Source: a virus. Taken from it: 64,000 bases of DNA. The notes below the pieces were generated by a model. That model did not search any database and had not been told where the DNA came from. It saw only the letters and a list, made by a program, of their open reading frames with translations. The translations under genes were made by a program, and so were the position numbers. Shown here in pieces: positions 9,931-51,560 of this stretch (positions are counted from its first letter, which is position 1; the number at the start of each line of letters is the position of its first letter). The stretch spans positions 124,001-188,000 of IMG/VR virus record IMGVR_UViG_3300017963_000188; one strand, written 5' to 3'.

Positions 9931-10135
9931 CTTCTTCTTCCTGTTCCTTTTTCTTTTCATCGACATGCCATAATATCACTACTGGTTGTTCATATCTCAT
10001 AAAGGTTTCTTGATGTGGTCCATCATGACCTTCAGGTAGATTACATCTCATTGTGCATCTATTATCCCCGTAATCATCTCCCAAATACATATGAGCATTG
10101 CATTCACCTTCTACATCTTTGGGAGGTCCCCACAT
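9893..10135 (-). CDS. small acidic protein
   Basis: 80 aa from ATG 10135, which has AAGGAGTATTTG before it and overlaps the upstream stop (ATGA). Cys and His residues (CNAHMYLGDD, RCTMRCNLPEGHDGPHQ) could form a metal site. The C-terminus is a Glu/Asp-rich tail that overlaps the HNH gene start. Confidence 0.65.
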   Translation of the reverse strand: MWGPPKDVEGECNAHMYLGDDYGDNRCTMRCNLPEGHDGPHQETFMRYEQPVVILWHVDEKKKEQEEEDEYDEWDEDSGV

Positions 10136-26156: not shown

Positions 26157-26707
26157 GTCAACTCCATAGTATAGAAGTTCAACTCTTCACCCAACCATAA
26201 CTCAGGTTCAGAGGTATTTTCAATAATTTTCTTCCTTAATTCTAGATCATCTAGATTATATACTGGGATGTTATATGCCTGAGCGATACGCAAAGCTTGC
26301 CCAGTACCACCAATAATTCTTCCTTTGGGTGTCCAGCAAATTACAAATTCAACAGGGGTGTGTAAATCTCCCCCTAGCATAATCATAGAATTTCTGCCAT
26401 GGAACTGTTTTGAGTAGTAACTACAAGCTCCCCATCTTGGATGGTACTGGCCTGCTATTTCTATAGCTTGCATTGACACTGTAGATGACAACTTCATAGG
26501 GATAGTGTCTACATGTCGTTCAATGCCTTCCCAAGGCAAAAAGATTTCAGCATTAGGGGTAGCTCCTATCTCGAATGCTGTGTCAGCTCCTAGAGCCCCT
26601 CCAGACCTCAAGACATAGGTTTCTTTCAGTGACTTTGCTATCAAAGTCATGAGTTCCAACACAGGTTTTGGGGTCTGTCGTGAACCAATACCGGCATAAA
26701 ATTTCAT
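26153..26707 (-). CDS. SLOG-domain nucleotide-binding protein
   Basis: 184 aa from ATG 26707, coupled to the NADAR gene by ATGA with GAGGGG upstream. FYAGIGSRQTPKPVLELM and LRSGGALGADTAFEIG are the Rossmann-like SLOG (YpsA/DprA-type) motifs; GGTGQALRIAQAYNIPVYNL is the C-terminal strand-helix. SLOG proteins bind nucleotides or NAD-derived signals. Pairing with NADAR suggests a role in ADP-ribose or NAD-derivative handling. Confidence 0.82.
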   Translation of the reverse strand: MKFYAGIGSRQTPKPVLELMTLIAKSLKETYVLRSGGALGADTAFEIGATPNAEIFLPWEGIERHVDTIPMKLSSTVSMQAIEIAGQYHPRWGACSYYSKQFHGRNSMIMLGGDLHTPVEFVICWTPKGRIIGGTGQALRIAQAYNIPVYNLDDLELRKKIIENTSEPELWLGEELNFYTMELT

Positions 26708-27135
26708 GATGACCGAAATTCCCCTCGAAGCTGCATCAATAACTTTCCCATCCAATTCTTACCATGCCCAAATTTCCCTGTTCCCCAAAATTCATCCCAA
26801 TGGGCATCTTCTTCAATAGGTTCATTCCCGGTAGCAAGCAGTTTTTCTTTCAAGTCTGGATGTTGCTCAAACTTACGTTTCAATATACCCTTCATAACGT
26901 TCAACCGCATATTGTCCCAACCCTTCCTAAGCTTAACAGCTCTTCCCAATTTCTTTGCCATCTTAGGACTTGGAGCTTTTCTAATCATGTCTTGCTCAGA
27001 ACGATTCAGAGACTTAGCAGCTTGGAACAAATGCTCTACTGTGGGCCAGGTCTTACCTTCAGAATCTTGTATGGGGATAGGGGCAAAGTTGGACATCCAT
27101 GAATAATCAGAATCTGATATAAAACGGATTGTCAT
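26704..27135 (-). CDS. NADAR family protein
   Basis: 143 aa from ATG 27135 (AGGA site upstream; a TTG lies at 27141). The fold is clear: YSWMSNFAPIPIQ, TVEHLFQAAKSL, RKGWDNMRLNVMKGILKRKF, LLATGNEPIEE, FWGTGKFGHGKNWMGKLLMQLR. NADAR proteins act on ADP-ribose-linked compounds; some remove ADP-ribose from guanine in DNA and oppose DarT-type defence. An anti-defence role here is inference. Confidence 0.88.
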   Translation of the reverse strand: MTIRFISDSDYSWMSNFAPIPIQDSEGKTWPTVEHLFQAAKSLNRSEQDMIRKAPSPKMAKKLGRAVKLRKGWDNMRLNVMKGILKRKFEQHPDLKEKLLATGNEPIEEDAHWDEFWGTGKFGHGKNWMGKLLMQLRGEFRSS

Positions 27136-27241
27136 CTTCAATATCCTTATCTAGATGTTTAGTTTTCAGAGCAACAGGCTCTGGCCCAAACAGGCTACTA
27201 TACACTAGCCATTTTATTATGTGATCAATTATCCTGTCCAT
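27107..27241 (-). CDS. small hypothetical protein, 44 aa
   Basis: ATG 27241 follows AAAGGAGAATGAA. The frame runs 44 codons (MDRIIDHIIKWLVYSSLFG...) and overlaps the start of the NADAR gene by 29 bases. The amphipathic N-terminus could touch membrane. It fills most of the gap before the divergent plus-strand tail block. Confidence 0.5.
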   Translation of the reverse strand: MDRIIDHIIKWLVYSSLFGPEPVALKTKHLDKDIEDDNPFYIRF

Positions 27242-27338: not shown

Positions 27339-27983
27339 ATGCCGAGAAAAAGATGGATACCACTCATAGATATTATATTTTTTGGAGCTTTCTGGTTGTT
27401 AGGGATAGCAGCCACTGTGGGAGCACTCATCACTCCACAAGAATGGGACTTGGCTAAGAAGATTGCTGTGATAGCCATACCTGTTGGGTTCACAATCTTT
27501 GTGGTCACTTTTTTCATTCTACGTTGGAGATCAAGACCAAACTTCATAGCACAGATACCAGAAATACCATATGAAGATGGTGTAGCTGTTTGGGTCAATA
27601 ATACAGAAATGAATCAAGAACTTATGGAGAAATCAATCAGATTTTTCATAGAAATTTTTTCTAAACTTGCAGATCTACCTGAAGAAGAGATAATATCAAT
27701 ACTAAGTCTCAGCTCATGCGAATGGAGAAAGACACGAATCTCAATGATGGGGATGGGATGGTATGTGAAAGACAAAGCAGGTATTCAAAAAGGTAAGGGA
27801 GTCATTGTGCAATGGCAACCAGACATCATAAATACAGCTCTCTTTCACGAATGGATTCATATGGTAGATGAATATCATAGAGGACCAAAAGAAGGGTTGA
27901 AATATATGCCAGATTACAAACATGAAGGACCATGGTGGTCATTAGAATCAAAACTGAACGCAGAATGGACAGCTAGAGGTTAA
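27339..27983 (+). CDS. membrane zincin-like protein (HExxH)
   Basis: 214 aa. Two membrane helices (residues ~9-30 and ~42-62) are followed by a soluble domain with ALFHEWIHMVDEYH, an HExxH zinc motif, and a downstream WWSLESKLNAEW that may give the third ligand. GGAGG precedes ATG 27339. It opens the plus-strand tail-fibre block, so it may process a fibre protein or act on the host envelope. Confidence 0.72.
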   Translation: MPRKRWIPLIDIIFFGAFWLLGIAATVGALITPQEWDLAKKIAVIAIPVGFTIFVVTFFILRWRSRPNFIAQIPEIPYEDGVAVWVNNTEMNQELMEKSIRFFIEIFSKLADLPEEEIISILSLSSCEWRKTRISMMGMGWYVKDKAGIQKGKGVIVQWQPDIINTALFHEWIHMVDEYHRGPKEGLKYMPDYKHEGPWWSLESKLNAEWTARG

Positions 27984-27984
27984 T

Positions 27985-30165
27985 GTGGCTACTAAAGGTA
28001 AAATGTATTGGACCGACAAGGATACCAATTCTGTGAAACGAGCTAATATGGATGGCTCAAATGTAGAAACTCTTGTTGGAGGGGGTAATACTCCTTGGGC
28101 AATAGCTCTCGATATTGCTGCTGGGGTAATGTATTGGACAGATGATGGAGTTGATCGGATATACAAAGCCAATATGGAAGATGGCTCTGGTTACACCACA
28201 TTCCTTTCAGGAATACCTGCTGCTCGTGGTCTTGACCTTGATGTTTCTGGAGATAGGATCTATTGGTGTGAATACAATGCACCCTATATCAAAAGAGCCA
28301 TACTATCTACTGGGGGAAGCACCACTAACCTAATATCTGGACTGACAAATCCAGGTGACCTAGCGGTAGATCCTGCCAATGGTAAGATTTATTGGTGTGA
28401 CTACGGGACCCAAAAAATCCAACGAGCAAACCTCTCTGATGGTTCATCAATCGAAGATATAGCCACAGGAATAGCTGGTACATGGGGTATACTTGTTGAT
28501 TCTGCTGGTGGTAAAGTATATTGGTCAGCAACAGGAACAGACAAGATTCAACGTCGTAACGTAGACGGTTCAGGACCAATAGAAGATGTGCTTGTAGGGC
28601 TAGATCTTTGCTTTAGGTTCGATTTAGACCTTGAAGATGGTAAGATATACTGGACAGATGCTACTACAGATAATATACAACGTGCTGACTTAGATGGATC
28701 TAATTGGGAAGAATTAGTCACAGGACTGCCTTACCCCTTAGGTATAAGGCTTGATCCACATCCAATAGATCCAGCCACAAAGATGAGAGTTGTGGGGAAA
28801 GGATTACACAATAGAATTGAAGCCGACACCACAGATATTATTTTCTCTGGATTTGGCCAATGTCCTGAAATGGCTCGTGTCACAGCAGATAGTGAATTAT
28901 CTATTGGTGGTGTACCTTCTCCTTCAGGAACATTCCATTTATCTTCCAACACTATCACATTAGTAATAGACCAATCTACTTACAATGTGGTTAACACTGG
29001 TTCTGGTCAGTACCAAAGTTTTACAGCACCTATCAATGGGTATATCACAAAAATAACATTGAGAGTATCTGTAGAATACACTGGAACAATCGAGATACGT
29101 TCTGGTGTCGGTTCAGGAGGTACTCTTTTAGCTTCTGTGGACACCACAATACCAGTGGATACAGACACTGAAGTACCAATCATATGTTGGACACAAATCT
29201 ACAATCAGTATTCAATAGTATTTGTAGATTCAGCCTCAATACATGCTTCCAATTCTGATCCATATTCTGGTGGTGATAGTAACGTATCTGGTACAGATTG
29301 GTTCTTCAAAATATACATGAAATCAATGGTTGGCCTTGATTCTACACTATCAATTAATCAAGCATTTGATAACAATGGATGGGGTGGTACGGATCAATGG
29401 CAAAGTTTCACAGCCGTTTCTACGGGATATACTTCAAAGATAACATTGAAAAGTCATTCCACATATAATGGGACTTTAGAAATACGTACAGGTGCTGGTA
29501 CAGGTGGCACTCTGTTAGCCTCAGTACCATGTTCTTTACCAGCACTGACAGCTACTGATGTAGACATTGTAGCTTATATCGAAACTGGTAATGTTTATTC
29601 AATGGTTTTTGTAGGTTCATCAACAATGAGATTAGCTACAACGAATCCATATGCTGGTGGTCAAAGCAGTGCTAACAGTAGCTATGACTTCTTCTTCAAA
29701 CTATACATGGGAGGTTTAACATCACCTCCCGACCTATTAACAGTGGGTGATAACGGCACTGAGATAAACAGGACATTGAATCATAGTAATCTCACTAGTA
29801 GAAGGATTAATCAAGATTTAGGGACAGACGAGGAAATTGAAATTGATAGTAGTGTTGGTGGGTTAGGGTTTGTCCAGGTAGGAGATGATTTAGCTTATGC
29901 GAAGTTCATATGGGATTCTAGTGGGAATGTGATTTTGATAGAAAACACTACAAATGTGATTGACAGTGATACTATTGAATATATTTGCATATATGATAAA
30001 GGGACAAGCATAGGGTTAAAAAATAGATTCCCATTACCAGTGAGTCTGAGAGCAAGTTTGTATCACTCTGCAATCACTGCTAGTGGTTCAGCAGCACCAG
30101 CAGCTCCTACTGCTCCTACTGCTCCTACAGCTCCTACAACAACATTTACAACATCTTCAAAATAA
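27985..30165 (+). CDS. tail fibre with YWTD-type beta-propeller
   Basis: 726 aa, GTG start at 27985 after AGAGGT. Residues ~1-260 hold six repeats of the YWTD/LDL-receptor propeller type (MYWTDKDT, IYWCEYN, IYWCDYG, VYWSATG, IYWTDATT). Two ~140-aa jelly-roll-like units follow (QYQSFTAPINGYITKITLRV, QWQSFTAVSTGYTSKITLKS), then a ~100-aa module also present in the 31115 and 34770 proteins. It ends in a Pro/Ala/Thr-rich tail. Probably a host-binding adhesin. Confidence 0.82.
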   Translation: MATKGKMYWTDKDTNSVKRANMDGSNVETLVGGGNTPWAIALDIAAGVMYWTDDGVDRIYKANMEDGSGYTTFLSGIPAARGLDLDVSGDRIYWCEYNAPYIKRAILSTGGSTTNLISGLTNPGDLAVDPANGKIYWCDYGTQKIQRANLSDGSSIEDIATGIAGTWGILVDSAGGKVYWSATGTDKIQRRNVDGSGPIEDVLVGLDLCFRFDLDLEDGKIYWTDATTDNIQRADLDGSNWEELVTGLPYPLGIRLDPHPIDPATKMRVVGKGLHNRIEADTTDIIFSGFGQCPEMARVTADSELSIGGVPSPSGTFHLSSNTITLVIDQSTYNVVNTGSGQYQSFTAPINGYITKITLRVSVEYTGTIEIRSGVGSGGTLLASVDTTIPVDTDTEVPIICWTQIYNQYSIVFVDSASIHASNSDPYSGGDSNVSGTDWFFKIYMKSMVGLDSTLSINQAFDNNGWGGTDQWQSFTAVSTGYTSKITLKSHSTYNGTLEIRTGAGTGGTLLASVPCSLPALTATDVDIVAYIETGNVYSMVFVGSSTMRLATTNPYAGGQSSANSSYDFFFKLYMGGLTSPPDLLTVGDNGTEINRTLNHSNLTSRRINQDLGTDEEIEIDSSVGGLGFVQVGDDLAYAKFIWDSSGNVILIENTTNVIDSDTIEYICIYDKGTSIGLKNRFPLPVSLRASLYHSAITASGSAAPAAPTAPTAPTAPTTTFTTSSK

Positions 30166-31112
30166 TGGATGTGAATATGGAATACCCACCAGTACATTTA
30201 TCAATAGCCGTAACCAATAGATGTAATTTCACATGTGACTATTGCTTACGAGGTAAACCAACAAATGATGATATAGATCCAAATCTTCTTAAAAAGATAT
30301 TCAAAAATGCTTCTGATTATGGAATACAAAATGTATCTTTAACGGGTGGTGAACCTTTACTACACCCAAAGTTCTCTAAAATTCTACGCACAATATCAAA
30401 ATATGACCTAGATTATTCATTTGTAACGAATGGGTCATTTCTCAGTGATTATAAGAAACTAATGAGGAGGATAAAAAAACCTCTACATGCATCTGTATCA
30501 TTGAATGGGAGCGAGAAGTTCATACATGATAAGTCAAGACCAGGTACTAAATCCTGGCAAAATGCTATATCATCCATCAGTATGCTTGTTGGTATGGGTA
30601 TAACAACCTTCGTTGGGTTTGTGGTTGATAACAATAACAGAGGGGACATTGGTTGGACTGTGAAAATGGCTAAAGAACTAGGAGTTGAAGCTCTTTGGTT
30701 GCTCTCATATGTGCCAAATAAAGGGTTTGAATATACTTCATACACAATGCAAGAAAGAGAAGATATTATCAATGAGCTTATCGAATATGGGTGTAAATAT
30801 AATCTAAAAGTTCATTGCTCTTCATCGTTCTTAGACCTCAGACAAGTTACTTGTGAATTTATGGCTAACCCAGTTCCATATATCCAACCTACAGGGGAAG
30901 TAAGTTTCTGTTGTAATTTGGAATCAAAAGGTGTGATTTTAGGTGATTTGAATAATGATAAGTACCGAGACATTCTAGAATTATTTGATTCTGAAAGTGC
31001 TGCTTTAATGCAAGCTAAAGAAACATTTTTAGCAGACCCAGTAGACAAAAGTAACTGTGAATTTTGCTATGACTTTTTCAAAGATAGAATATCATACTTT
31101 GAATCGGAGTAA
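30165..31112 (+). CDS. radical SAM/SPASM-like enzyme in the tail-fibre block
   Basis: 315 aa. CNFTCDYC at residues 20-27 is the radical SAM cluster motif; SLTGGEPLLHP is the SAM-binding GGE segment. Near the C-terminus GEVSFCCNLESKGVILGDL and CEFCYDF give extra Cys as in SPASM enzymes that modify peptides. It overlaps the upstream fibre stop (TAATG). Paralog at 33781. Its place between fibre genes suggests modification of a fibre protein. Confidence 0.85.
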   Translation: MDVNMEYPPVHLSIAVTNRCNFTCDYCLRGKPTNDDIDPNLLKKIFKNASDYGIQNVSLTGGEPLLHPKFSKILRTISKYDLDYSFVTNGSFLSDYKKLMRRIKKPLHASVSLNGSEKFIHDKSRPGTKSWQNAISSISMLVGMGITTFVGFVVDNNNRGDIGWTVKMAKELGVEALWLLSYVPNKGFEYTSYTMQEREDIINELIEYGCKYNLKVHCSSSFLDLRQVTCEFMANPVPYIQPTGEVSFCCNLESKGVILGDLNNDKYRDILELFDSESAALMQAKETFLADPVDKSNCEFCYDFFKDRISYFESE

Positions 31113-31114
31113 GT

Positions 31115-32641
31115 ATGACCACAAAGTTCAAAATATTTGGAGATGCTAGTGAGACTAGGATCAATGCAGGGAATGAAAATACAGATTCTGTAGCTCCCGT
31201 CATATTCACAGGATACAGAGGAGAACCCCAGTTAGCTAAAATAACAGGGCTTGGTGAGTTTGTTATTGGTGTAGAAGAACCTAATGGTCCACTTCATATA
31301 GCTCACACACCATCTACTCTAGAAATTGATCAACCAACTTGGAATACATACATTAGTGGTACTGATAACTACCAAACATTCATATCAAGACTTGAAGGTA
31401 CATTAACTAAGATCACACTCAAGTTTCAAAATGACTATTCTGGTATGATCGAACTGATAGATAACTTCAAATTAGTAGATCAGGTCCCTAATAATGGTGG
31501 TGCTCTTGGCCCTCCGTGGTGGTATTCTTATTCTGATGCTGAATCAACAGATAGCATCAATTCTGTATACGAAGCTAGTATTGGTAGGTACGTTAATGAA
31601 TTCACTTATTCCCTTGGACTTACTGGAACTGTATGGGCTGGAGCAGCTATATGGGTAGGTGATGCTGGTCTTTCAAAAAACACTAATTACAATGGTGTGA
31701 GGATTACATATACATCTACTGTTGGTTGTAGGATTACATTACCAACTAGTGTTGTAACAGATAGTTCGTGGCATGGGATAGATTTACCACCTACTGGAAG
31801 TGGTGTTTATGAGACTGCCAACATATATTTCTCTGAACTCGATCAACCTGGATGGGGGATACAAGTACCATTTGATCCAGAAAAGATAATATCTATAGAG
31901 GTACGACCACCAAGTTCTCATTGGTATGGTGACTCTGGTACTATCAGATTTTATGAATATGGTCTCAACTTATATGACTCTGATTCGAATCCAGTGTTGG
32001 ATTCATATATTATGAATGCCACAGCTCTTACAGATACAGACGCTATTCTTGATTGTCATTTATATAAAGATGCTGAATACACCATAAAAATAAATGGAAC
32101 TTCAGACGTATTAGCATCGAATTCAGATCCATATGATGATGGAGATAGTAATATAGCAGGTTCAGATATCTTCTTCAAAGTGTATATGAAAGATGATTCC
32201 ACAACCACTACTGATTTATTAGTTATTGATGACGATGTAGCTGAATTTGATGGTATGATAGATCATAATGGAGTCACTGTCCAAAGGATTCAACAAGTAT
32301 TAACCAATGGTTCTGAGATAACTATTGATGCTAGCACATCAGGATGGGGGACTATCCAGATAGGTGAAAACCTAGCCTTTGCTAAATTCATATGGGATAC
32401 CAATAACAGTGTCACGTTAATCACTTCTAATGAACTTGTAGATACTGCTGATACTGTAGGTACATTCAACATTTATAACAATACAACCAATGTGGCATTG
32501 AAGAACAATTTCTATACAGTCGATGTTACGATACAAGCCGAGTTATGTTATGCACCAGTAGTTTCTGCGGGACCTGCTGCTCCTGCTGCCCCAACTGCTC
32601 CTACTTCCCCAACTGCCCCTACGACAACAGGGGGTAAGTAA
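31115..32641 (+). CDS. tail fibre protein with Pro/Ala/Thr tail
   Basis: 508 aa. The N-terminus (KFKIFGDASETRINAG) matches the short adaptor start shared by the downstream fibres. A jelly-roll-like region follows (NYQTFISRLEGTLTKITLKF). The C-terminal ~100-aa module (TVQRIQQVLTNGSEITIDA, AFAKFIWDTNNSVTLI) is shared with the propeller fibre. It ends APAAPTAPTSPTAPTTTGGK, close to the tail of the upstream fibre. Placed between radical SAM 1 and the AsnB-like gene. Confidence 0.78.
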   Translation: MTTKFKIFGDASETRINAGNENTDSVAPVIFTGYRGEPQLAKITGLGEFVIGVEEPNGPLHIAHTPSTLEIDQPTWNTYISGTDNYQTFISRLEGTLTKITLKFQNDYSGMIELIDNFKLVDQVPNNGGALGPPWWYSYSDAESTDSINSVYEASIGRYVNEFTYSLGLTGTVWAGAAIWVGDAGLSKNTNYNGVRITYTSTVGCRITLPTSVVTDSSWHGIDLPPTGSGVYETANIYFSELDQPGWGIQVPFDPEKIISIEVRPPSSHWYGDSGTIRFYEYGLNLYDSDSNPVLDSYIMNATALTDTDAILDCHLYKDAEYTIKINGTSDVLASNSDPYDDGDSNIAGSDIFFKVYMKDDSTTTTDLLVIDDDVAEFDGMIDHNGVTVQRIQQVLTNGSEITIDASTSGWGTIQIGENLAFAKFIWDTNNSVTLITSNELVDTADTVGTFNIYNNTTNVALKNNFYTVDVTIQAELCYAPVVSAGPAAPAAPTAPTSPTAPTTTGGK

Positions 32642-33784
32642 ATGAACCTTGAACAAATAAAAGAGATGTTATCTCTATTTTGGTTCAGAGAAACTGTAGG
32701 TTCCTACACCAAACCCTCAAGAATGTTGTCTATAGAAGCATTCAATGTATTGTTTCATTCTAAATTTGGAGAGATTTGTAACAGATATAAAGATGCTATG
32801 TTATTCTTCAGTGGTGGTTTGGATTCATCATTGATATTGGCATATACCAAATCAAGTTCTATTAGTATTACATACCATAATGATGCTGAATACAGGAGTC
32901 GGAAAAGGTTGTTACAACAATCAAAAACTCCTAATATTGAGGTGACGGTTAGCCCCGCATATGCTGCAAGTCTTTTTCAAGATTTTATCGAACACAGCTC
33001 TATACCACACATCAGCCCATTTATATATTCATTCTATATTCTATTGAAAAAAGCATCAATGCAAGGCGTGAGAACTGTTATTACAGGAGATGGTTCTGAT
33101 GAACTTTTCTGTGGTTATTTGATACATTATTATCTTTGGTGGTATTCATTTAACCATAACACAGAAGAAGTATTTCTGTATGGCAACCCTACTGACTACA
33201 GTAGATATTTGTATCAACGATATTCAAACAACTTGGATATTTGTATACCACAACACTTGGGTATACCGGAACCATACCTAAAAGAACTTCTTGGGGACTG
33301 CGTAGATGTATTATCTTATTTCCCTAAATCAAGAGCTAAAACATCATTAGAGCAGGTCTGGGAAATTGATAAGACTTGGACTATACCAAGATTCCAAAAA
33401 GAATATCAAGATCTAGCATCCTCATTTGGTATCAATATAGTATCACCATTCACAGATCCAGAGATAATGGATATAGGAGAGAAACTACCATGGGATCAAA
33501 AGATCCAGAATGGTGTGTTAAAATATGCCTTGAAAGAGTCATGTCGAGGCATGTTACCAGACTGGCTTCTAGACCAACCAAAAATTGGGTTGTGGGCTCC
33601 GGTAAAAGAATGGCTCAAAACAGATGCTTTCAGAGAAGTTATTGACCAGGCATGGAATTCAAGAATCTGGGATCTAGGGGTTAATAGAGAGACATTCAGA
33701 ACATGGCTCTCTGAAGAGGATAAATTAGAATATTGTTGGAGTTTAATAGTATTGGCTCATTGGTGGGAAAGGAATATAGTATGA
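32642..33784 (+). CDS. asparagine-synthetase-like amidotransferase (C-terminal domain only)
   Basis: 380 aa. FFSGGLDSSL at residues 55-64 is the PP-loop ATP-pyrophosphatase motif, and TGDGSDELFCGY at ~148-159 is the second AsnB signature. The N-terminal glutaminase domain is missing, so it would use ammonia or act as an adenylating ligase/cyclase, as in some peptide-modification clusters. It starts immediately after the upstream fibre stop and couples to radical SAM 2. Confidence 0.85.
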   Translation: MNLEQIKEMLSLFWFRETVGSYTKPSRMLSIEAFNVLFHSKFGEICNRYKDAMLFFSGGLDSSLILAYTKSSSISITYHNDAEYRSRKRLLQQSKTPNIEVTVSPAYAASLFQDFIEHSSIPHISPFIYSFYILLKKASMQGVRTVITGDGSDELFCGYLIHYYLWWYSFNHNTEEVFLYGNPTDYSRYLYQRYSNNLDICIPQHLGIPEPYLKELLGDCVDVLSYFPKSRAKTSLEQVWEIDKTWTIPRFQKEYQDLASSFGINIVSPFTDPEIMDIGEKLPWDQKIQNGVLKYALKESCRGMLPDWLLDQPKIGLWAPVKEWLKTDAFREVIDQAWNSRIWDLGVNRETFRTWLSEEDKLEYCWSLIVLAHWWERNIV

Positions 33785-34761
33785 CGATAAGTCAAAGAAA
33801 TGATATAGCTATATCAATAACAAACAAATGTAATCTAGCATGTCCTCATTGTTTAAGAGGTGGTAGCACAGAAGATCATATTGCTTCTGCATTTCTAGAT
33901 AAAGTTCTTAAAGATGCCAGTCCATTTGGATTTTCATTTGTCTCTATCACTGGTGGTGAACCATTTATGCATCCGAGATTCAAAAAAATAGTAGAGACAA
34001 TAATAGCTAATGATTATGAATATAACTTTGTAACCAATGGGCTTCCGTACCAAGAATATTATGACCACATATTAGGCACACCATTACATCGAAAGTTCAG
34101 CAATCTCGCTGTGAGTCTGGATGGCTCCACAAAAGAAATCCATGGTTCTGTCAGGAAAAGCGCATTGTCTTGGGTCAAAGCAACAGAAGCAATCAAATTC
34201 TACAGTAAACGAGTACACAACCCTGTCACGGTGAACTTTTTTGCTAACCAAAAAAACAAAGATGATACTGGTGAAGTGATCCGACTGGCAAAAGAATTAG
34301 GGGCCGATACACTATGGATTGCTGGGAGTCTCCCAGTACCACCAAGTATAGAACCTCCAGAAGATGCTCTTACATACAGACAAAAAGAAGAAATCATATT
34401 CCAAGCTCAATCTACAAGCCATGAAGTCAACCTAGATGTCAAATATGCATCATGTTTCTTGGACATTTCAAAGATAGCTATCTGCCCAAATCTCACTAAC
34501 CCACAGCCACACATCAACCCAAGAGGTGAACTTACATTTTGCTGTAACATGTCAGGTCGAAGTGCTGTTATTGGTGACTTGCATAGCCAAACTTTTGAAG
34601 AGTTATGGGAAGAACTTGTTACATTGAGTGCTTCAGTAAAAGATCTGAAGATAGCATATGTAGAAGAACATGAAGGTGAAGAAATAAATGAAAATGAAAG
34701 ACGAATCACTAATTGTGATTTCTGTCATATGAAATTGAAAGAAAAGATAGATTTCTTTTAG
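33781..34761 (+). CDS. second radical SAM/SPASM-like enzyme
   Basis: 326 aa from ATG 33781, overlapping the AsnB-like stop (ATGA), with AAAGGA upstream; a longer TTG reading is rejected. CNLACPHC at residues 17-24, SITGGEPFMHP, and C-terminal GELTFCCNMSGRSAVIGDL with CDFCHMKLKEKI parallel the first enzyme. Both carry the same auxiliary-cluster layout, implying related substrates. Confidence 0.85.
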   Translation: MTISQRNDIAISITNKCNLACPHCLRGGSTEDHIASAFLDKVLKDASPFGFSFVSITGGEPFMHPRFKKIVETIIANDYEYNFVTNGLPYQEYYDHILGTPLHRKFSNLAVSLDGSTKEIHGSVRKSALSWVKATEAIKFYSKRVHNPVTVNFFANQKNKDDTGEVIRLAKELGADTLWIAGSLPVPPSIEPPEDALTYRQKEEIIFQAQSTSHEVNLDVKYASCFLDISKIAICPNLTNPQPHINPRGELTFCCNMSGRSAVIGDLHSQTFEELWEELVTLSASVKDLKIAYVEEHEGEEINENERRITNCDFCHMKLKEKIDFF

Positions 34762-34769
34762 GAGCTGTT

Positions 34770-35987
34770 GTGGGAAAGAAATACAGAATATCTGCTGAGC
34801 CAGAAGGATTGTATGTTGAATCCGGCAATGTGAGAGGTGCTGGTTCTCTCACATCACTACATTTTTCTGGTATTGGTGGTGATCCAACACACGCTCAATT
34901 AGAAGCTGATGGTCAGATTGGTGTGAATGTCAGCTCCACTGAAGGTGTGTTTGATGTATACCATTCGGCTAACAGCAGATTCATAATTAAAGAGACTGGT
35001 GATATTGAAGTAATAGGTGATATCTACAACAATGGTCTTCAAATAGTTCGTGAATGCATCGAATTAGCAGACGATACTACAATAGCGTTACCCTCAAATA
35101 CTGCTGGGTGGGGGACTGTTATAGCTGGGAACATGTACTGTTTTGCTCATTTCAAATGGGATCGTTCTGGGAACATCTCACTCATTGAAAGCACTTCTAA
35201 CGTAGTAACTACAGACACAGATGCTTATTTCTGTATCTATTCAAACAGTGGTGTGGTGACTATAAAAAACAGATTAGCTGTGACGATGACAGTTTGCTTT
35301 GAAGCTAATTGTTCTTCTTATACAGCTTCAATACCATTTGTTTCAGATTCAGATACCTTGATTCTATGGCATCTTGACGAAACATCTGGTTCTGTCATTG
35401 ACTCAGGACCATATGGTATCAATGGAACAAATACAGGACTCACTCCCAATCAACCTGGACCATCATGGATGTCAGGAACATCCTATTTATCAGACAATGT
35501 GAATGATTATATAACTGTAGCTTCCACATATTGGGGTAGCCCTTCAACAGAAGGTGTTCGTGGTACTGTTGAGTTTCTTTTCAAACCTACTAACATGGCT
35601 GATTTCTATCCTGGCCCAGGACTTGATAGAAGTTTCTTTCGTATCGATTATGTTGGCACAAATGACCTGTCTTGTTTTATACGAGAGATTTCTGGGACCA
35701 ATTATTTCATATTTGATTCGTTTGGTAATAGTCTCCAGATACCATTCAATAGTCCAGCAGCAGATTCATACTTCTCAACTTCTACATGGACACATGTCAA
35801 ATGTGTCTGGGATAGATATGATTTTGGGACAAGACTCTATCTAAATAACACATTAGTTGATGAAACAGGTCCATTTTATTTCTTGTATGGTAATAACAAT
35901 CGCATCGTATATTTTGCCAATAGTGCTGGTGTTTCCAGCATGCCTGGTTATTATGACGAATTTAGATATTCAAAGGTGGTGAGATGA
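34770..35987 (+). CDS. tail fibre with LamG/concanavalin-like domain
   Basis: 405 aa, GTG start at 34770 after GGAG. The N-terminal adaptor (KKYRISAEPEGLYVESG) and the ~100-aa module (GWGTVIAGNMYCFAHFKWD) match neighbouring fibres. Residues ~190-405 form a LamG-type sugar-binding jelly roll (LILWHLDETSGSVIDSG, VEFLFKPTNMAD, WTHVKCVWDRYDFGTRLYLN). Probably binds a surface glycan. Confidence 0.82.
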   Translation: MGKKYRISAEPEGLYVESGNVRGAGSLTSLHFSGIGGDPTHAQLEADGQIGVNVSSTEGVFDVYHSANSRFIIKETGDIEVIGDIYNNGLQIVRECIELADDTTIALPSNTAGWGTVIAGNMYCFAHFKWDRSGNISLIESTSNVVTTDTDAYFCIYSNSGVVTIKNRLAVTMTVCFEANCSSYTASIPFVSDSDTLILWHLDETSGSVIDSGPYGINGTNTGLTPNQPGPSWMSGTSYLSDNVNDYITVASTYWGSPSTEGVRGTVEFLFKPTNMADFYPGPGLDRSFFRIDYVGTNDLSCFIREISGTNYFIFDSFGNSLQIPFNSPAADSYFSTSTWTHVKCVWDRYDFGTRLYLNNTLVDETGPFYFLYGNNNRIVYFANSAGVSSMPGYYDEFRYSKVVR

Positions 35988-36664
35988 GTATAGCTTTAAA
36001 CAATGATGCCCTAAGAGTTTATGACGGGAAGTTAGCCATTGATTACACAGCTAATCCTAGCAGCCGATTACACATAGGTGCCCCAAGTGTAGCTAAACCA
36101 GCATTGAAAATAGATCGTGTATCTGGATATGAATCATTCCAAGCCATATATGATTGGCTCATATTAGAATCAGGATCAGGAGTTGTGGGGTTCAACCATT
36201 ACACAAACAAGAACATGTATATTTGTTATAACGGTGGGAGCAGTGGGGGTGGCGATGTTGCAATGGGTACAAGTGAGGTTAGTCTCACAACAGGATGTGA
36301 CCTGAATATATCAGGGACAATATACAATGGTGCTTGGACTGAGATCAGCACGTTTTATAATGGATGGGGTAATTATGGCTCTCCATTCTGTAATCTAGGA
36401 GTTCTTAGAGATAAAAATGGTGTAGTCCACATAAGAGGTATTGTCAGATATGGCACATACAGTGGTTCTATAATATGTTATCTACCACCTGGGTTTTGGC
36501 CAGACACTACGAAATTACTTGTAGTATTAACATATACTGACACAGTTGGCAGGGTTGATATAAGAAGTACAGATGGTGCTATAATAGCTCAATATGGGTA
36601 TGGAACACCACCAAACACATGGCTAAATTTACACGGGATATCATTTAAAGCAGCAGGATATTGA
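35984..36664 (+). CDS. small tail fibre paralog 1
   Basis: 226 aa. N-terminal beta region (LAIDYTANPSSRLHIGAPS), a mid NHYTNKNMYICYNGG block, and a C-terminal fibre-tip module: LRDKNGVVHIRGIVRYGT, LPPGFWPD. This C-terminal pattern is common in phage fibre tips. First of three tandem copies with the same layout. Confidence 0.78.
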   Translation: MSIALNNDALRVYDGKLAIDYTANPSSRLHIGAPSVAKPALKIDRVSGYESFQAIYDWLILESGSGVVGFNHYTNKNMYICYNGGSSGGGDVAMGTSEVSLTTGCDLNISGTIYNGAWTEISTFYNGWGNYGSPFCNLGVLRDKNGVVHIRGIVRYGTYSGSIICYLPPGFWPDTTKLLVVLTYTDTVGRVDIRSTDGAIIAQYGYGTPPNTWLNLHGISFKAAGY

Positions 36665-36665
36665 T

Positions 36666-37340
36666 ATGTCTAATCCTTTAAAAATAGGTTCTTTGTTTAC
36701 TTTTCCTTCTGGTAAAATAAGTATTGGAGACCCAGCAGAACCAGCATCAATGATAAGAGTTGAAAGTCCGGGGACTACAAATCATTGTATTGTGATAGAT
36801 AGATATTCTGGACAACCATCAATAAAAGCTATTTCAGGAGGGACAGGTAGTGGATGGTTATTATTTGGTAGCAATGGTTCACCAATTTCAGTAAACCATT
36901 ACAGTTCAAATGACGTTCATTTATGTTATGGTGGTGGTAACGTAGTTATGGGTGCAGCATCACCACAAAACATCACTTCAGGTTCAGATCTCACATTAAC
37001 AGGAATGATAGCTAATGAGGGGTGGATTGCCCCTACATTACTTAACAACTGGCAAAACTATGCTGTATCAGTATACAATTCAGCCGCATATTTCAGAGAT
37101 AAAAATGGATTTGTCCATCTCAGAGGTTTGGTGCGATATGGTACAGCAAATACTATATTCCAACTACCAGATGGGTATCGACCCACCCATAGATTGTTGA
37201 AAGATGTCTGCACCAATCCAAATGTTATAGGGCGTGTTGAAATTTATCCTGCTAGTGGAAGTGGAAATGTTGATATGTATGCTGGTGACACGGGTTGGTT
37301 TTCATTAGATGGGGTGATGTTTAGAGCAGAAGGATATTGA
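36666..37340 (+). CDS. small tail fibre paralog 2
   Basis: 224 aa. Same plan as its neighbours: KISIGDPAEPASMIRVES, NHYSSNDVHLCYGGGNVVMG, FRDKNGFVHLRGLVRYGT, LPDGYRP. Separated from paralog 1 by two bases. Divergence is highest in the C-terminal loops, as expected for receptor contact. Confidence 0.78.
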   Translation: MSNPLKIGSLFTFPSGKISIGDPAEPASMIRVESPGTTNHCIVIDRYSGQPSIKAISGGTGSGWLLFGSNGSPISVNHYSSNDVHLCYGGGNVVMGAASPQNITSGSDLTLTGMIANEGWIAPTLLNNWQNYAVSVYNSAAYFRDKNGFVHLRGLVRYGTANTIFQLPDGYRPTHRLLKDVCTNPNVIGRVEIYPASGSGNVDMYAGDTGWFSLDGVMFRAEGY

Positions 37341-37341
37341 T

Positions 37342-38016
37342 ATGCCTGTATTACAATACAATGATGGGGTTTTAACAATAGACAGTGCTGGAGAACTCAA
37401 TATTGGAAGTCCTGTTGAAACAGGAGCCACTCTTAATGTTGGATCTTCACCAAGTGAGCATACTATTCTTGTGGGGCGTGATGGTGGTAGAGCCTGCATT
37501 CAAGGACCTGGAGATTTGATTTGTGATTCATCAGATAATCATGTGAGTTTAAACCATTTTACTTCTGCTGGAGTTCGAATGGCATTTGGAGGTGGTAATG
37601 TAGCTATTGGCACTGCTACACCCCAAAATGTCACAAGTGGCTGTGATCTAACTATCACAGGTACTATCTACAATGAAGGCTGGTCCTCACCTTCTCTCAT
37701 ACCCCCATGGACACAATATAGTGCTAGTTGGGAATATGCTGGGTATTGGAAAGATAAGAATGGGATGGTTTATTTGCGAGGGATGATAAAAGGTGGTACT
37801 TCACCAGGTACTTATGCATTTCAACTTCCAGGAGGATATTTGCCATATCGTAGAGAACTACAACTTGGTACTGGGCATAATGGGACAGCCTACTATCCTA
37901 TTAGAATTGATATTTTAACAGACGGTAATGTGTATATTGCTTGGCCAACAATGTCTCCACAAACATATCCAAATTGGGTTTCTTTAGCTAGGGTAAGTTT
38001 CAGAGCGTATGCATAG
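37342..38016 (+). CDS. small tail fibre paralog 3
   Basis: 224 aa. LNIGSPVETGATLNVGSSP, NHFTSAGVRMAFGGGNVAIG, KDKNGMVYLRGMIKGGT and LPGGYLP repeat the plan of the two upstream genes. Together they may form a heterotrimer or serve as alternative tips. Confidence 0.78.
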   Translation: MPVLQYNDGVLTIDSAGELNIGSPVETGATLNVGSSPSEHTILVGRDGGRACIQGPGDLICDSSDNHVSLNHFTSAGVRMAFGGGNVAIGTATPQNVTSGCDLTITGTIYNEGWSSPSLIPPWTQYSASWEYAGYWKDKNGMVYLRGMIKGGTSPGTYAFQLPGGYLPYRRELQLGTGHNGTAYYPIRIDILTDGNVYIAWPTMSPQTYPNWVSLARVSFRAYA

Positions 38017-38025
38017 AGGATTGAT

Positions 38026-40509
38026 ATGTCCAATGTATTTACATTACTTGGAGGGCCAGATAATTTCACTTATCTTGAAAGTGGTTTGGCTCGAACACCA
38101 AGTTCATTAACAGATCTTAGGATAACAGGTATAGGTGGAAGTCCAGATCTCATTAGGTTCGGAGCTACTGGCAATCATCATCTATATACTGGTAGTGGTG
38201 ATAACACACTTCTACACCTACATAGTTCCAATTATAAACTTGCACTAGAAGCAAATAATTCAAGTGGTGTATTTATTGAAGTAGGCACTGATTGGGTTGC
38301 TGACTCTGTAGCAGATCTCATTTTCACTGGAATGTATCAAAGTCCAGAACATATGAGACTCACCAGTGGAGGTCATTTAGGAATAGGTGTAAATCCTCAA
38401 GGTGTATTTCATTCTTGTACCAATGGGGCATATGATTCCCAAGCAATTATGGAACGTTTGAATGCAGTAGGTTCTGGTGGACAGGCTATGCTTCGTTGTA
38501 TAGCTTCATCAGAAGTAGATATGGTTGATGGATTTGGACCAGTCATCAATTTTGGTATCAGAGACAATACTGTCACAACTTATGGATCAGCAAATCTCAT
38601 AGGTCAAATTGATTGTAAAAGAGATGGTCATGACGGTAGTGGTAAATTCAGCATTAGACCTAGAAAAGCTGGTTCTGTGCAAACTGGATTGGTTGTAACA
38701 CAAGATAACAGAGTTGGTATAGGAATAGACACTCCTGAATCAGCACTCCACATAAAAACTCCTGTTGATGTGAATGATATTTATGTCATAGCAAAATTTG
38801 AAGACTCTACCACTTCTGGAGATGGTTACTTATCAATAGAAGATGGTATTAGTGTTGACAATCATTTTGTCCCTCTAATACGAGGTCGTGGTAAAGGCAT
38901 AGGTTCTGGAGGGGTAGGGTTATTTTTAGTAGGAGAAATGGAAGATGACGATACTGATGTTTATGGTATGTTATTCCAAGTACAGAAATATGGTCCAGCA
39001 GCATTAACCACAGCTCCAGCTTACACATTCAGGAACTATACCACTGAATTGATGACATTATCTACAAGTGCTACCTTAAATGTGAATGGTAACATCACTA
39101 TTAATGATTCTGCTCCCACAAATATGTGGAGTGCAAAGTTATGTTTAGGTGCTGTAGGTGGATATTTCGGCACAATGGGGAGTTACCACAGTTATTGGGT
39201 GTGGAATGGGTATCGTATTGCTGGAGGTTCAAATTGGTACGTTGGAGGTACTGGTCAAAATTATAGTGTGTTATCAGGGATAGAATTGGGACAAAATGGT
39301 ATCTATTTTCTTGGCAGAGATTATGGTTCTGAAGGAACATATGGTTATGGACCATTGATCAAAGGTCATCTAGATGAAACTGGTAATTTCACATTATATG
39401 GGCAAGGCTCAAGTGGTTTTAGTCCAAATCTTTATATTGAAGGATCTGCGGATTCAGACCCACGTATTTGGTTAAAATCTAATAACACAACAGAAGGTTC
39501 TTCATGGTGGTATGATAACAATGTTGGTGGTTGCTATTATGATCAAATATGGTCAAGTGGTGCTGATGCTACTGCTGCTCATACTTTTCGTACTAGAACT
39601 GGAGGTACTCCAATAACAGCTATGTATATCAACATGGCTGGAAATGTCTTCATACCATCCTATCTATATGCAGATAGATATGTGATTCAAAATTCTATTG
39701 ATGGTACTAGTGCAAAAGGTATCCATCTATGGACTGCGACAGATAACAACTGGGCAATTTATATGAGCCAAGCAGGAGCTGGAAAGAGCATAGCTGATGG
39801 TACTGCCTGCACCCCAGGGACAGGAGAAACAACTCATGCTATGAGATTTAGGGTTTATCGAGCTGGCACTGCCATAAGAACCTGGATATTTGAAGGATCT
39901 GATGAGATATGTTATGCAAATATAAACTCTAATGGCATGATGTATGTCAGGACTCGCATTGGGATCAATGTCAATCCAAGCTACCCATTACATGTAAATG
40001 CTAATGCTGTCGGATACACAGGTGTTTTTGTCAACACTGGTAATCATTACGACTATAGAGGTGTATACATCAGAGCTGGTTACTATAGCCCCTCAGGAAA
40101 TGGTCATTGTAGATGGTTATGGTTCGCTGATGGAGATGGAACCGAAAGGTCATATGTTGGATACTCAACTTCCAGCCCATATGCAGCATTCTATGCAGTT
40201 TCTGATAGACGATTGAAAACAGATATTGGCCCTACTAAGGTAAATGGACTTGATGTAATCACAGGTCTAAAACTGTATGAATATGGTTTCAAGAATAAAA
40301 AAGTACCTTTCCAAAAAATTGGGTTCATAGCCCAACAAGCAAGAGAAATATATCCAAATATGGTATCAGCCACAGAGAACAAAAAAGATATACTCACTCT
40401 TTCTGACTCTTGTCTAATACCAGTGCTAGTAAAAGCAGTACAAGAACAGCAAGAAACAATAAAGCAGTATGAAGAACGGATAGCAGCATTAGAGGCTTTA
40501 AATGGCTAG
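38026..40509 (+). CDS. giant tail fibre with S74 intramolecular chaperone
   Basis: 827 aa. The N-terminal ~120 residues (FTLLGGPDNFTYLESGLAR, LRITGIGGSPDLIRFG) are shared by the next three fibres. A long beta-rich shaft follows. The C-terminal ~110 residues form a peptidase S74 chaperone: SDRRLKTDIGP with the self-cleaving Ser, GLKLYEYGFK, IGFIAQQAREIYP and a terminal coiled coil. S74 drives trimer assembly and then cuts itself off. Only this one of the four giant fibres has it. Confidence 0.88.
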   Translation: MSNVFTLLGGPDNFTYLESGLARTPSSLTDLRITGIGGSPDLIRFGATGNHHLYTGSGDNTLLHLHSSNYKLALEANNSSGVFIEVGTDWVADSVADLIFTGMYQSPEHMRLTSGGHLGIGVNPQGVFHSCTNGAYDSQAIMERLNAVGSGGQAMLRCIASSEVDMVDGFGPVINFGIRDNTVTTYGSANLIGQIDCKRDGHDGSGKFSIRPRKAGSVQTGLVVTQDNRVGIGIDTPESALHIKTPVDVNDIYVIAKFEDSTTSGDGYLSIEDGISVDNHFVPLIRGRGKGIGSGGVGLFLVGEMEDDDTDVYGMLFQVQKYGPAALTTAPAYTFRNYTTELMTLSTSATLNVNGNITINDSAPTNMWSAKLCLGAVGGYFGTMGSYHSYWVWNGYRIAGGSNWYVGGTGQNYSVLSGIELGQNGIYFLGRDYGSEGTYGYGPLIKGHLDETGNFTLYGQGSSGFSPNLYIEGSADSDPRIWLKSNNTTEGSSWWYDNNVGGCYYDQIWSSGADATAAHTFRTRTGGTPITAMYINMAGNVFIPSYLYADRYVIQNSIDGTSAKGIHLWTATDNNWAIYMSQAGAGKSIADGTACTPGTGETTHAMRFRVYRAGTAIRTWIFEGSDEICYANINSNGMMYVRTRIGINVNPSYPLHVNANAVGYTGVFVNTGNHYDYRGVYIRAGYYSPSGNGHCRWLWFADGDGTERSYVGYSTSSPYAAFYAVSDRRLKTDIGPTKVNGLDVITGLKLYEYGFKNKKVPFQKIGFIAQQAREIYPNMVSATENKKDILTLSDSCLIPVLVKAVQEQQETIKQYEERIAALEALNG

Positions 40510-42817
40510 TAAGTTCAGATTGCTTGGTAGTTCTGGAACTACCTTTCTAGAAAGTGCTCTAGTCAGTAGTCCTGGTTCTCTGTCAAGTCTCAGAATAACA
40601 GGAGTTGGTGGTAGTCCTGAGTTATGTCACTTTGACAGATATGGTAACCATCATTTATACCCAGGTAGTTCAAATAAGACTCGTCTTCATCTTAAAGGGG
40701 GTAATAGAACTCTACGAATAGCTGCTGAAACTACTGGTAACTCTATCCAATCAGGTGTGACATGGACCTCTGGTTCCACTACAGATCTTATTATTTCAGA
40801 TCTCACCAAAACCAATAAAAGGATGCATATCGATTCTTCTGGACATGTAGGATTCAGAACAACACCAGCATTCCCATTTCATCTTGTAGGGACTAACACT
40901 ACAGATGACATAATGCACGTCTATGGTGGTGGGGATTCATTGGTAATAAACTTTGGAGGGACCTCTGGTGGATATAGGCCAGTATACAAAGTATATCAGG
41001 GTAGAGGAACCTATGACTCTCCCCTAGCTTCACAAAATGGAGATATCCTATTTCAACTCACAGCCCGTGGCTGGACAGGTGCTTATTCTGATGCTGCCAG
41101 AATTGAAATGTTTGTAGATGGCACACCTTCAGGTACTTCTGTTCCTGCTGGATTCAAATTCTACACCACACCTTCTGGGTCAGTATCAGCTCTATCTGAA
41201 CGTATGAGGCTTAGTCATGATGGCAAATGGGGTATAGGTCAAACGAACCCACGTAATCGAATGCATATTGGAGCTAGTAAGGGTTTTTGCCTTGACAATG
41301 CAGGTACTCGTGAATTCATTGGATTCAACATTTACAATGATGGTTCTTATCGTCATATCGATACTGGTTATGCATCATTAATTTCATTTGACTATTCTGC
41401 TGGGATATTCAGAATCACACCTTGCCCTTCAGGAACAGCAGGAGCTGCTACCACTGGTCAGGCTACATTTCTCGCTACAAATGATAACAATGTTGGTATT
41501 GGTGATCAAATCACTATGGGTGTTCCAAGTTGTGCTCTTGACATTGTAAATCAAAATCCCAGTGTTGGTACTGTAGCAAAGATGTTTAGAATCAAGACTG
41601 ATGATAATAATTCATTTAACATATATGAACATTACGTAAGTGGTAGTGATGTAAATTATCGTCTAGGGTATACAGTAGGTGGAACTGATTACGATGGTCT
41701 AATCATCAAAGATGGTAAAGTTGGTATTAGAGCCATACCAGAAACATGGCTACATGTATGGGCTGCTAGTCATAATTCCGAATTGATGAGATGGCAACTT
41801 TCGGATGTGTCAGGACACCATTTAAGAGTTTTTGACAACACAGCTTCAGGAAATGTCATATATACATTCTCCCCTTATCATTTAACAGCATATGCTAATG
41901 GTCTTAAATTAGACAGTTTTGGTAATGTAGGGATAGGACTTCCTTATAATGACACTTCGGCTCCTATTCGTACACTACACCTTGAAAATGGTAAACTACA
42001 TATACATTCAGGAGACTATAGAAACGAAGGTTTAGAGTTCACTGTCTTTGGTGCTGATAATCAAGGTGGTGGTCGTATATTTATGAAAGAAATAGACAGT
42101 GAGTATTATGGATTCTCAATTCTTTATAATGGTGAAAATGATAATTCAATTTTAAATTGCAGAGGTAATACTTTTTATATTATCAGACATCCAGGCACTT
42201 TGAATGGTTCTCCTATGTTGAGCATACGCAGGGAAACTGGATTTGTAGGAGTTAGAATACCTACTACAAGAGATCCAGCTACTCAGCTTCATGTTCGAGG
42301 TTCATCTCACCTCATGACATTCATTGGTACTGCTGGGGCAGGAATAGCATATTACCCATTAGGCTGGTCAAGTGGGAGAAAAGCATTCATAGGAAATCTA
42401 ACAGGAACTGATAACCACTTCTATATAAAAAGTGATTCTGGGCAAGACATACATTTCAGAACCACTGGGAGTATTTATCTTTCATCTTCAGGTTTCAATA
42501 CTACCGGATTTACATGGCCATTAACAGTAAATGGTAGTATGCAAACATTAAATATTGCTTATGGTGCTGTAAGTAATTACTCCCCTGTAATCCCAGGAGG
42601 TACATATACCGGTGAATATTCAGTTTCATTTGGAAAAACATTAACTTCAACACCAATAGTTGTTGCTACTATGGACAACAACCAAGTGGATAGTTATGTA
42701 GTCATACAAATAATGAGTTACTCTACAACAGGTTTTGTATATAGACTATTTAACCCGCATACATCAAGTTTAACACTCACAACTTCACTGTTAAGATATT
42801 TTGCTATTTCAAGTTAG
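40502..42817 (+). CDS. giant tail fibre paralog
   Basis: 771 aa, overlapping the S74 gene by 8 bases. N-terminus KFRLLGSSGTTFLESALV, LRITGVGGSPELCHFD as in the other giant fibres. Repeated shaft units contain MRLSHDGKWGIGQTNPRNRMHIG-type beta blocks. The C-terminal ~80 residues (SVSFGKTLTSTPIVVATMD) are shared with the next two fibres instead of S74. Confidence 0.82.
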   Translation: MASKFRLLGSSGTTFLESALVSSPGSLSSLRITGVGGSPELCHFDRYGNHHLYPGSSNKTRLHLKGGNRTLRIAAETTGNSIQSGVTWTSGSTTDLIISDLTKTNKRMHIDSSGHVGFRTTPAFPFHLVGTNTTDDIMHVYGGGDSLVINFGGTSGGYRPVYKVYQGRGTYDSPLASQNGDILFQLTARGWTGAYSDAARIEMFVDGTPSGTSVPAGFKFYTTPSGSVSALSERMRLSHDGKWGIGQTNPRNRMHIGASKGFCLDNAGTREFIGFNIYNDGSYRHIDTGYASLISFDYSAGIFRITPCPSGTAGAATTGQATFLATNDNNVGIGDQITMGVPSCALDIVNQNPSVGTVAKMFRIKTDDNNSFNIYEHYVSGSDVNYRLGYTVGGTDYDGLIIKDGKVGIRAIPETWLHVWAASHNSELMRWQLSDVSGHHLRVFDNTASGNVIYTFSPYHLTAYANGLKLDSFGNVGIGLPYNDTSAPIRTLHLENGKLHIHSGDYRNEGLEFTVFGADNQGGGRIFMKEIDSEYYGFSILYNGENDNSILNCRGNTFYIIRHPGTLNGSPMLSIRRETGFVGVRIPTTRDPATQLHVRGSSHLMTFIGTAGAGIAYYPLGWSSGRKAFIGNLTGTDNHFYIKSDSGQDIHFRTTGSIYLSSSGFNTTGFTWPLTVNGSMQTLNIAYGAVSNYSPVIPGGTYTGEYSVSFGKTLTSTPIVVATMDNNQVDSYVVIQIMSYSTTGFVYRLFNPHTSSLTLTTSLLRYFAISS

Positions 42818-42825
42818 GTGATGGT

Positions 42826-45162: not shown

Positions 45163-45171
45163 AGGTGAGAG

Positions 45172-47454: not shown

Positions 47455-47499
47455 AATTTTATCTGGTTGGTACAGTACAATTATATCAAGGAGGGGGAA

Positions 47500-51416: not shown

Positions 51417-51560
51417 CTCCAAACTTTAAAATCTCAAATCTTTTCAGTATATAGATGAAGTGAAGGGATTATTTTATCTTCATGTGAAATAGTCCTTGAC
51501 AAAGGTATATAGAATAATGTACCTTTGGCGTCACTTAACTTTAAGGAAGGGAGTACGAAA

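Follow-up and report, generated by a model that had tools for sequence, protein, structure and literature searches.

Radical S-adenosylmethionine enzymes (rSAMs) such as anSME can modify residues of full-size proteins, and lasso cyclases are AsnB-like enzymes. Phage-encoded enzymes that act on virion proteins are described in the literature on mycobacteriophage virion glycosylation, and cyanophages encode 2OG-Fe(II) oxygenases (PMC9146016), which are likewise phage-encoded protein- or small-molecule-modifying enzymes. The chemistry in both cases differs from that of rSAM and AsnB enzymes, and our literature search found no paper on modification of tail fibres by either one, in line with the remark in an earlier note on this DNA that no such system had been described. 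Here we analyze a six-gene block of a phage genome in which two rSAM genes and an AsnB-like ligase gene are interleaved with three tail-fibre genes. The block lies in a stretch of 64,000 nucleotides (hereafter the window) that corresponds to bases 124001-188000 of the 358-kb IMG/VR virus record IMGVR_UViG_3300017963_000188. This record comes from a jumbo tailed phage that carries portal and terminase genes as well as genes for GroEL and a sigma-70 region 2 protein, with a terminase 47% identical to that of LR745208, a 485-kb uncultured phage, and 29% identical to that of Tunturiibacter phage Tunturi_5. We propose that the two rSAMs and the ligase are maturases of the type used for ribosomally synthesized and post-translationally modified peptides (RiPPs), which the phage may have recruited for post-translational modification of its own fibres, and we give this reading about an even chance of being right.

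The six genes lie on one strand in the order fibre 1, rSAM1, fibre 2, AsnB-like, rSAM2, and fibre 3 (Table 1), with successive gaps of -1, +2, 0, -4, and +8 bases when rSAM2 is started at ATG 33781; the alternative upstream TTG at 33733 would give a gap of -52 to the AsnB-like gene. The gene order, strand, and touching or overlapping spacing described in the earlier note are therefore borne out. Because the start codon of rSAM1 overlaps the fibre 1 stop codon by one base and a clear Shine-Dalgarno sequence was not seen, translation of rSAM1 is likely coupled to that of fibre 1. The last codons of fibre 2, GGG GGT AAG, may also act as the AsnB ribosome-binding site. Consensus scans for promoters and terminators in the six-gene block gave no excess over shuffled sequence, and the third-codon-position base composition of the enzyme genes resembles that of the phage's other genes. 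The enzyme genes are placed inside a fibre cluster, because a seven-gene fibre/minor-tail array continues to 47454. Its character as a tailed-phage fibre cluster is evident from the PHROGs tail-fibre and minor-tail matches downstream of the enzyme genes, the modules that its fibres have in common, and a Peptidase_S74 intramolecular-chaperone fibre at 38026-40509, likewise downstream of the enzymes.

Comparison of the three fibres reveals features confined to the genes that adjoin the enzymes. Fibre 1 carries an N-terminal propeller (residues 5-~260) with Ldl_recept_b repeats that score 80.5 bits against a Pfam cut-off of 21, as the earlier designation of a propeller fibre implied, and fibre 2 is 34-46% identical to fibre 1 across several segments in BLAST comparisons. 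Both have shorter segments in common with the S74 fibre (E 5e-5 for fibre 1 and 6e-4 for fibre 2), and the N-terminal module of fibre 3 is held in common with the downstream fibres (A2 profile, E 6.6e-11). The latter match supports the fibre nature of what had been called a LamG fibre, while the LamG assignment itself is weak (Laminin_G_3, 24.4 bits, below the cut-off of 27.6). A module of ~95 residues, here termed A3, occurs in three copies in the 358-kb record, one in each of fibres 1-3 that flank the enzymes; the profile was built from these copies themselves, and the result of the search is that the record holds no fourth copy. The copy in fibre 3 matches the profile with an E value of 1.9e-52. 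In addition, a DNA pattern for the Pro-Thr repeat located a tail of the form AAPTAPT.PTAPTTT at two loci of the record alone, the C termini of fibres 1 and 2, which sit directly upstream of rSAM1 and of the AsnB-rSAM2 pair, respectively. The two Ala-Pro-Thr tails use different codons. The terminal Lys of both tails was considered as a nucleophile and given little weight, since the GGK codons of fibre 2 may double as the AsnB ribosome-binding site noted above.

Both rSAMs belong to the Radical SAM superfamily, with PF04055 scores of 75.9 bits for rSAM1 and 54.1 bits for rSAM2 against a cut-off of 29.5, and they are paralogues with 35-37% identity. This divergence is similar to that between fibres 1 and 2 in their common segments, so a duplicated fibre-plus-rSAM unit would fit the arrangement. 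The CxxxCxxC motif of rSAM2 lies at Cys 33/37/40, and both proteins contain further cysteines in the pattern C-x18-C-C ... C-x2-C (C251, C270, C271, C328, and C331 in rSAM2, in TTG-start numbering). A SPASM domain is defined by the seven-Cys motif CX9-15GX4C..CX2CX5CX3C..C and two auxiliary clusters, whereas a Twitch domain binds one auxiliary cluster (PMC6231123). The phage proteins contain C-x13-G-x4-C-C and a single CxxC with no Cys after it, and Pfam SPASM falls just under its cut-off of 21.5 in both (21.1 and 21.3); hence, of the SPASM-like extra cysteines claimed in the earlier note, the cysteines are present and the SPASM label is better replaced by Twitch-like. Four suitably spaced cysteines and one extra in the C-terminal part, invariant in 15 sequences, together with the fold match described below, fit a Twitch-type rSAM with a single auxiliary cluster.

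The predicted structure of rSAM1 (predicted local distance difference test [pLDDT] 85.7, predicted template modelling score 0.85) was compared with known folds by Foldseek. The top match was SkfB, the sporulation killing factor sactisynthase (PDB 6EFN; E 1.1e-15), followed by SuiB, BlsE, viperin-like enzymes, CteB, and anSME. SkfB is also the top PDB sequence match and, like the phage pair, ends in five C-terminal cysteines, in its case within a Twitch domain (PMC6231123). SkfB differs in harboring an N-terminal RiPP recognition element (RRE) and a CxC ligand pair, in contrast to the phage rSAMs, which lack an N-terminal RRE and have a CxxC pair. SuiB, CteB, and anSME, SPASM rSAMs that act on peptides or proteins, match with E values of about 1e-12 or better; they contain the full SPASM domain with two auxiliary clusters, whereas the phage proteins lack the second Cys set. 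The modelled fold thus favours peptide or protein substrates, and small-molecule substrates are also compatible with it because BlsE and the viperin-like enzymes score close behind. Two more radical-SAM genes in the window, at 8567-9334 (-) and 10135-10935 (-), are unrelated to rSAM1 and rSAM2, and the record has a fifth radical-SAM match outside the window (G000:C1:50214-50543). Among other viruses, an rSAM with a similar CC...CxxC ending (L395:9842-10954) was seen in an apparent sugar-biosynthesis cluster, and Campylobacter phage CP220 (L013, 4230-11261) carries five radical-SAM genes with amidinotransferase and sugar-nucleotide transferase-like genes a few kb downstream of baseplate genes.

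Relatives of the rSAM pair were found in bacteria. A first scan of bacterial genomes returned none; a second, in which a three-row rSAM alignment was run against 84,980 genomes of bacteria and archaea, returned at least 80 loci, and families closer to the phage pair may lie outside this sample. Among the matches listed, the group with the best scores comes from Brocadiales, Nitrospirota, Myxococcota, Acidobacteriota, and Gemmatimonadota, and it has the whole Cys signature of the phage pair, with eight cysteines invariant across 15 sequences. In a 61-row tree the phage pair was recovered with support of 100/97 and its joint clade with the bacterial family with 99/99; a second tree, in which viral rSAMs and family members were both more numerous, gave 100/99 and 97/88 (ultrafast bootstrap/Shimodaira-Hasegawa-like approximate likelihood ratio test). 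The placement of the phage pair as sister group to this family is therefore well supported. Another viral rSAM, L037, joined the clade in a quick tree and was left out for its very long branch and different setting. The family is rare, occurring in 6/246, 7/347, and 6/343 genomes of three phyla under strict cut-offs, with a few Nitrospirota matches partial.

In most of the sister-family loci, the rSAM gene is accompanied by genes for an HprK-related kinase, an NTP_transf_5 protein, and a lasso B2 peptidase, which scores 49.4 bits where the cut-off is 33. A PqqD-like RRE is encoded there as well; its top NCBIfam match is lasso_PqqD, with a score that stays below the cut-off. Eight loci additionally contain nine open reading frames (ORFs) of 55-93 aa with the pattern ...EPKLTFIEPKLTKHGDATKITG.FFG.F.P or similar. 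Judged against the motif YxxPxLxxxGxxxxxT, which we take to be that of lasso-type leaders, all nine read as such a leader followed by a short Phe-rich core; example precursors lie at L246:6765-6956, L248:6725-6907, L383:10924-11091 (-), and L384:7810-8091. AsnB was not detected in 27 sister-family stretches, several of which end at contig ends. The sister family thus counts as one of peptide maturases through its associations and not through assays, and its cassettes, with a EPKLTFIEPKLTKHGDATKITG leader, PqqD, B2, HprK-like kinase, and rSAM and no AsnB detected, possibly represent a non-lasso peptide class with a lasso-type leader. These bacterial cassettes (L241-L252, L371-L384) and the phage block agree in the Cys pattern C-x18-CC ... 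CxxC and the conserved rSAM core, but the phage has AsnB and fibres where the bacteria have PqqD, B2, the HprK-like kinase, and short precursors, among them ones of 55-62 aa, none of which was detected in the phage. Phylogeny, cassette context, and fold together support the kinship with peptide-modifying rSAMs that the earlier note had suggested.

The third enzyme was correctly named as AsnB-like, with an Asn_synthase (PF00733) score of 132 bits against a cut-off of 21 and ATP-site residues invariant in AsnB alignments A9/A10. It has the ATP pyrophosphatase site and fold in common with the family of AsnB, beta-lactam synthetase, carbapenam synthetase, and lasso cyclase. However, it lacks the N-terminal glutaminase-like (GATase II) domain of glutamine-hydrolysing asparagine synthetases; its alignment to AsnB begins after that domain, and PF00733 stands alone in the 380-aa protein. 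The NCBIfam lasso-cyclase models match weakly (19.8 against a cut-off of 525), and a model of modest confidence (pLDDT 71) yields Foldseek matches to AS-B (asparagine synthetase B), carbapenam synthetase, and beta-lactam synthetase. Sequence and fold do not assign the protein to any one branch. Short AsnB-like genes without a glutaminase domain were also seen in phage contigs (L138:9854-10765, L138:15672-20553), near epimerase and glycosyltransferase-like genes and collagen-like GATGPTG fibres.

How might these enzymes act together? Neither PqqD (PF05402) nor B2 (PF13471) has a match in the 358-kb record, which may be a fragment, and a six-frame scan of the window for ORFs with a lasso-type leader gave one 5-residue chance match and no precursor. 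With enzyme-fibre gaps of at most 9 bases, the cluster offers hardly any intergenic space in which a precursor gene could lie. These observations argue against a canonical RiPP or lasso pathway, so that of the RiPP connection drawn in the earlier note the kinship of the rSAMs to a peptide-cassette family is what stands. Instead, the confinement of the A3 module and the tail to enzyme-adjoining fibres, together with the scarcity of intergenic precursor space, gives circumstantial support to action on the fibres. In fibres 1-3, modification would most likely fall within the C-terminal A3 module and/or the Ala-Pro-Thr tail. With a 5'-deoxyadenosyl radical and a Twitch auxiliary cluster, each rSAM would remove hydrogen from a residue of the fibre, and the product would be a cross-link, an epimer, or an oxidised residue. 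The AsnB-like enzyme would activate a carboxylate by adenylation and couple it to an amine, giving an isopeptide, or to free ammonia, giving an amide, with free ammonia proposed because there is no glutaminase domain. The fibre itself would replace leader peptide and RRE, and any benefit to the phage might lie in a rigid or protease-resistant tip or in altered receptor binding. In its most specific form, in which a jumbo phage employs RiPP-derived rSAM chemistry and an AsnB-type ligase to cross-link or remodel full-length fibres, with A3 and a modifiable tail in place of leader and RRE, as a previously undescribed maturation of virion proteins, the proposal is tentative and we would put it at somewhat below an even chance.

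Several points weigh against fibre maturation. The argument is one of association, made from a single genome. Scans of IMG/VR, protein searches of INPHARED, and inspection of 77 viral AsnB neighbourhoods, whose coverage may omit the records closest to this genome, revealed no second genome with the rSAM/AsnB/fibre arrangement, so the search for the gene trio that the earlier note had recommended uncovered no conserved neighbourhood. Indeed, among viral contigs, single-protein scans with rSAM1 and AsnB gave nothing; two-sequence rSAM patterns found T4-like rSAMs in other settings only; the TGGEPxxHP pattern matched 120 loci, of which none was close and none contained AsnB; the AsnB scan gave 77 loci with no rSAM within 10 kb by the rSAM profile; the rSAM family profile found no clade member; the fibre-family scan found no relative; and the tail pattern matched linkers or unrelated genes only. 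AsnB is absent from LR745208 and Tunturi_5, the nearest phages by terminase, and neither carries more than a single, distant rSAM. The phage rSAMs are sister to the cassette family, not nested in it, and sit on a long branch; the bacterial family acts together with small precursors and a PqqD-type RRE, neither detected in the phage; and at least two bacterial members (L377, L379) lie outside any cassette. Finally, fibre 3 lacks the Ala-Pro-Thr tail, and Ala-Pro-Thr or Pro-Thr repeats are plain internal linkers in other phages, which makes the tail by itself weak evidence.

Different roles for the enzymes have therefore to be considered. Their substrate or product might be a small molecule or sugar, such as one that changes the host surface so that other phages are excluded, or a nucleotide, and they might sit in the fibre array merely because such arrays collect cargo genes. 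The Twitch-type rSAMs BtrN and MoaA do act on small molecules (PMC6231123), BlsE is a close fold match, several phage rSAMs sit in sugar or polysaccharide clusters (L395 and phage CP220), and the stand-alone AsnB-like genes of phage contig L138 lie, as read by eye, with epimerase and glycosyltransferase-like genes near collagen-like fibres. However, there is no GT2 glycosyltransferase match in the 358-kb record (possibly a fragment) and the fibre cluster showed no sugar-nucleotide gene, so a polysaccharide role in particular is less probable; the L395 rSAM falls outside the clade of the phage pair and peptide cassettes; and the A3 module and tail are found where the enzymes are. We consider a small-molecule or sugar role rather unlikely. 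The block could also consist of duplicated acquired genes that travel with recombining fibre cassettes and have no part in fibre maturation. Fibre arrays recombine frequently, the block occurs in one genome only, and some bacterial family members stand alone; nevertheless, catalytic motifs are intact in AsnB and in both rSAMs despite divergence to about 35% identity, and base composition is phage-like, which together indicate long-term selection, while the rSAM1 start overlaps a fibre stop codon. Such a passenger origin appears unlikely.

A true RiPP pathway, in which a lasso-type peptide of the host, or a small peptide whose gene lies at another site in the genome, would be the substrate and the fibre setting incidental, would agree with the small precursors and lasso-type leaders of the sister family and with the role of AsnB-like enzymes as lasso cyclases, to whose models the phage protein has its weak match. 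The host could supply an RRE, and the search for precursor motifs covered the window. Given that neither a PqqD nor a B2 homologue was detected in the record, nor a leader precursor in the window, and that the cluster has almost no intergenic space, we consider this explanation quite unlikely.

Table 1. Positions, in window coordinates, of the enzyme-fibre block and adjoining genes
Feature	Position	Strand	Description	Basis
Putative metallopeptidase	27339..27983	+	membrane-anchored; HEWIHMVDEYH (HExxHxxxxxH-like)	ORF list; motif read by eye
Fibre 1	27985..30165	+	N-terminal Ldl_recept_b propeller, fibre modules, A3 module (residues ~601-693), C-terminal Ala-Pro-Thr tail	
A3 module of fibre 1	29785..30063	+	candidate substrate or recognition domain	A3 profile
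Fibre 1 C-terminal tail	30085..30162	+	GSAAPAAPTAPTAPTAPTTTFTTSSK	pattern at two loci of the record alone
rSAM1	30165..31112	+	315 aa; CxxxCxxC at 20/24/27; Twitch-like C230, C249, C250, C298, C301	Pfam, family alignment, model, Foldseek
Fibre 2	31115..32641	+	508 aa; A3 module (~385-482), Ala-Pro-Thr tail	BLAST to fibre 1; A3 profile
A3 module of fibre 2	32267..32560	+		A3 profile
Fibre 2 C-terminal tail	32570..32638	+	GPAAPAAPTAPTSPTAPTTTGGK	tail pattern search
AsnB-like protein	32642..33784	+	380 aa; SGGLDSS and GDGSDELFCGY motifs kept	PF00733, alignments, Foldseek
rSAM2	33781..34761	+	326 aa from ATG; rSAM1 paralogue, same Cys pattern	Pfam, alignment
Fibre 3	34770..35987	+	fibre N-terminal module, A3 module, weak LamG-like C-terminal domain	A2/A3 profiles, Pfam
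A3 module of fibre 3	35031..35330	+		A3 profile
Remaining fibre/minor-tail array	35984..47454	+	seven genes	PHROGs tail fibre/minor tail matches, Pfam Peptidase_S74, paralogy

The putative metallopeptidase gene is the first of the run in the fibre direction and is separated from fibre 1 by a 1-base gap. Its product had no Pfam or PHROG match, and the membrane-anchored protein is a possible protease of the enzyme-fibre system. Close to the fibre cluster lie genes for a NADAR domain protein (26704-27141, -), a ribose-phosphate pyrophosphokinase (47467-48447, +), the sigma-70 region 2 protein (51525-52199, +), and GroEL (52183-53751, -). Farther upstream, the gene at 16918-18462 (+) encodes a phage-borne seven-transmembrane (7TM) sensor region, a PAS domain, and a GGDEF diguanylate cyclase domain with a strong match of 166 bits.

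Regardless of how the phage block is read, the bacterial sister family points to a little-described cassette with a lasso-type leader and an rSAM and with no cyclase detected nearby. If the three enzymes do mature the fibres, this would be, as far as the literature searched shows, the first radical-SAM modification of a virion protein. It would also mean that enzymes of peptide natural-product type act on a large structural protein, which would be useful for protein engineering, and it would give phages a new route to tune their adhesins beyond sequence change.

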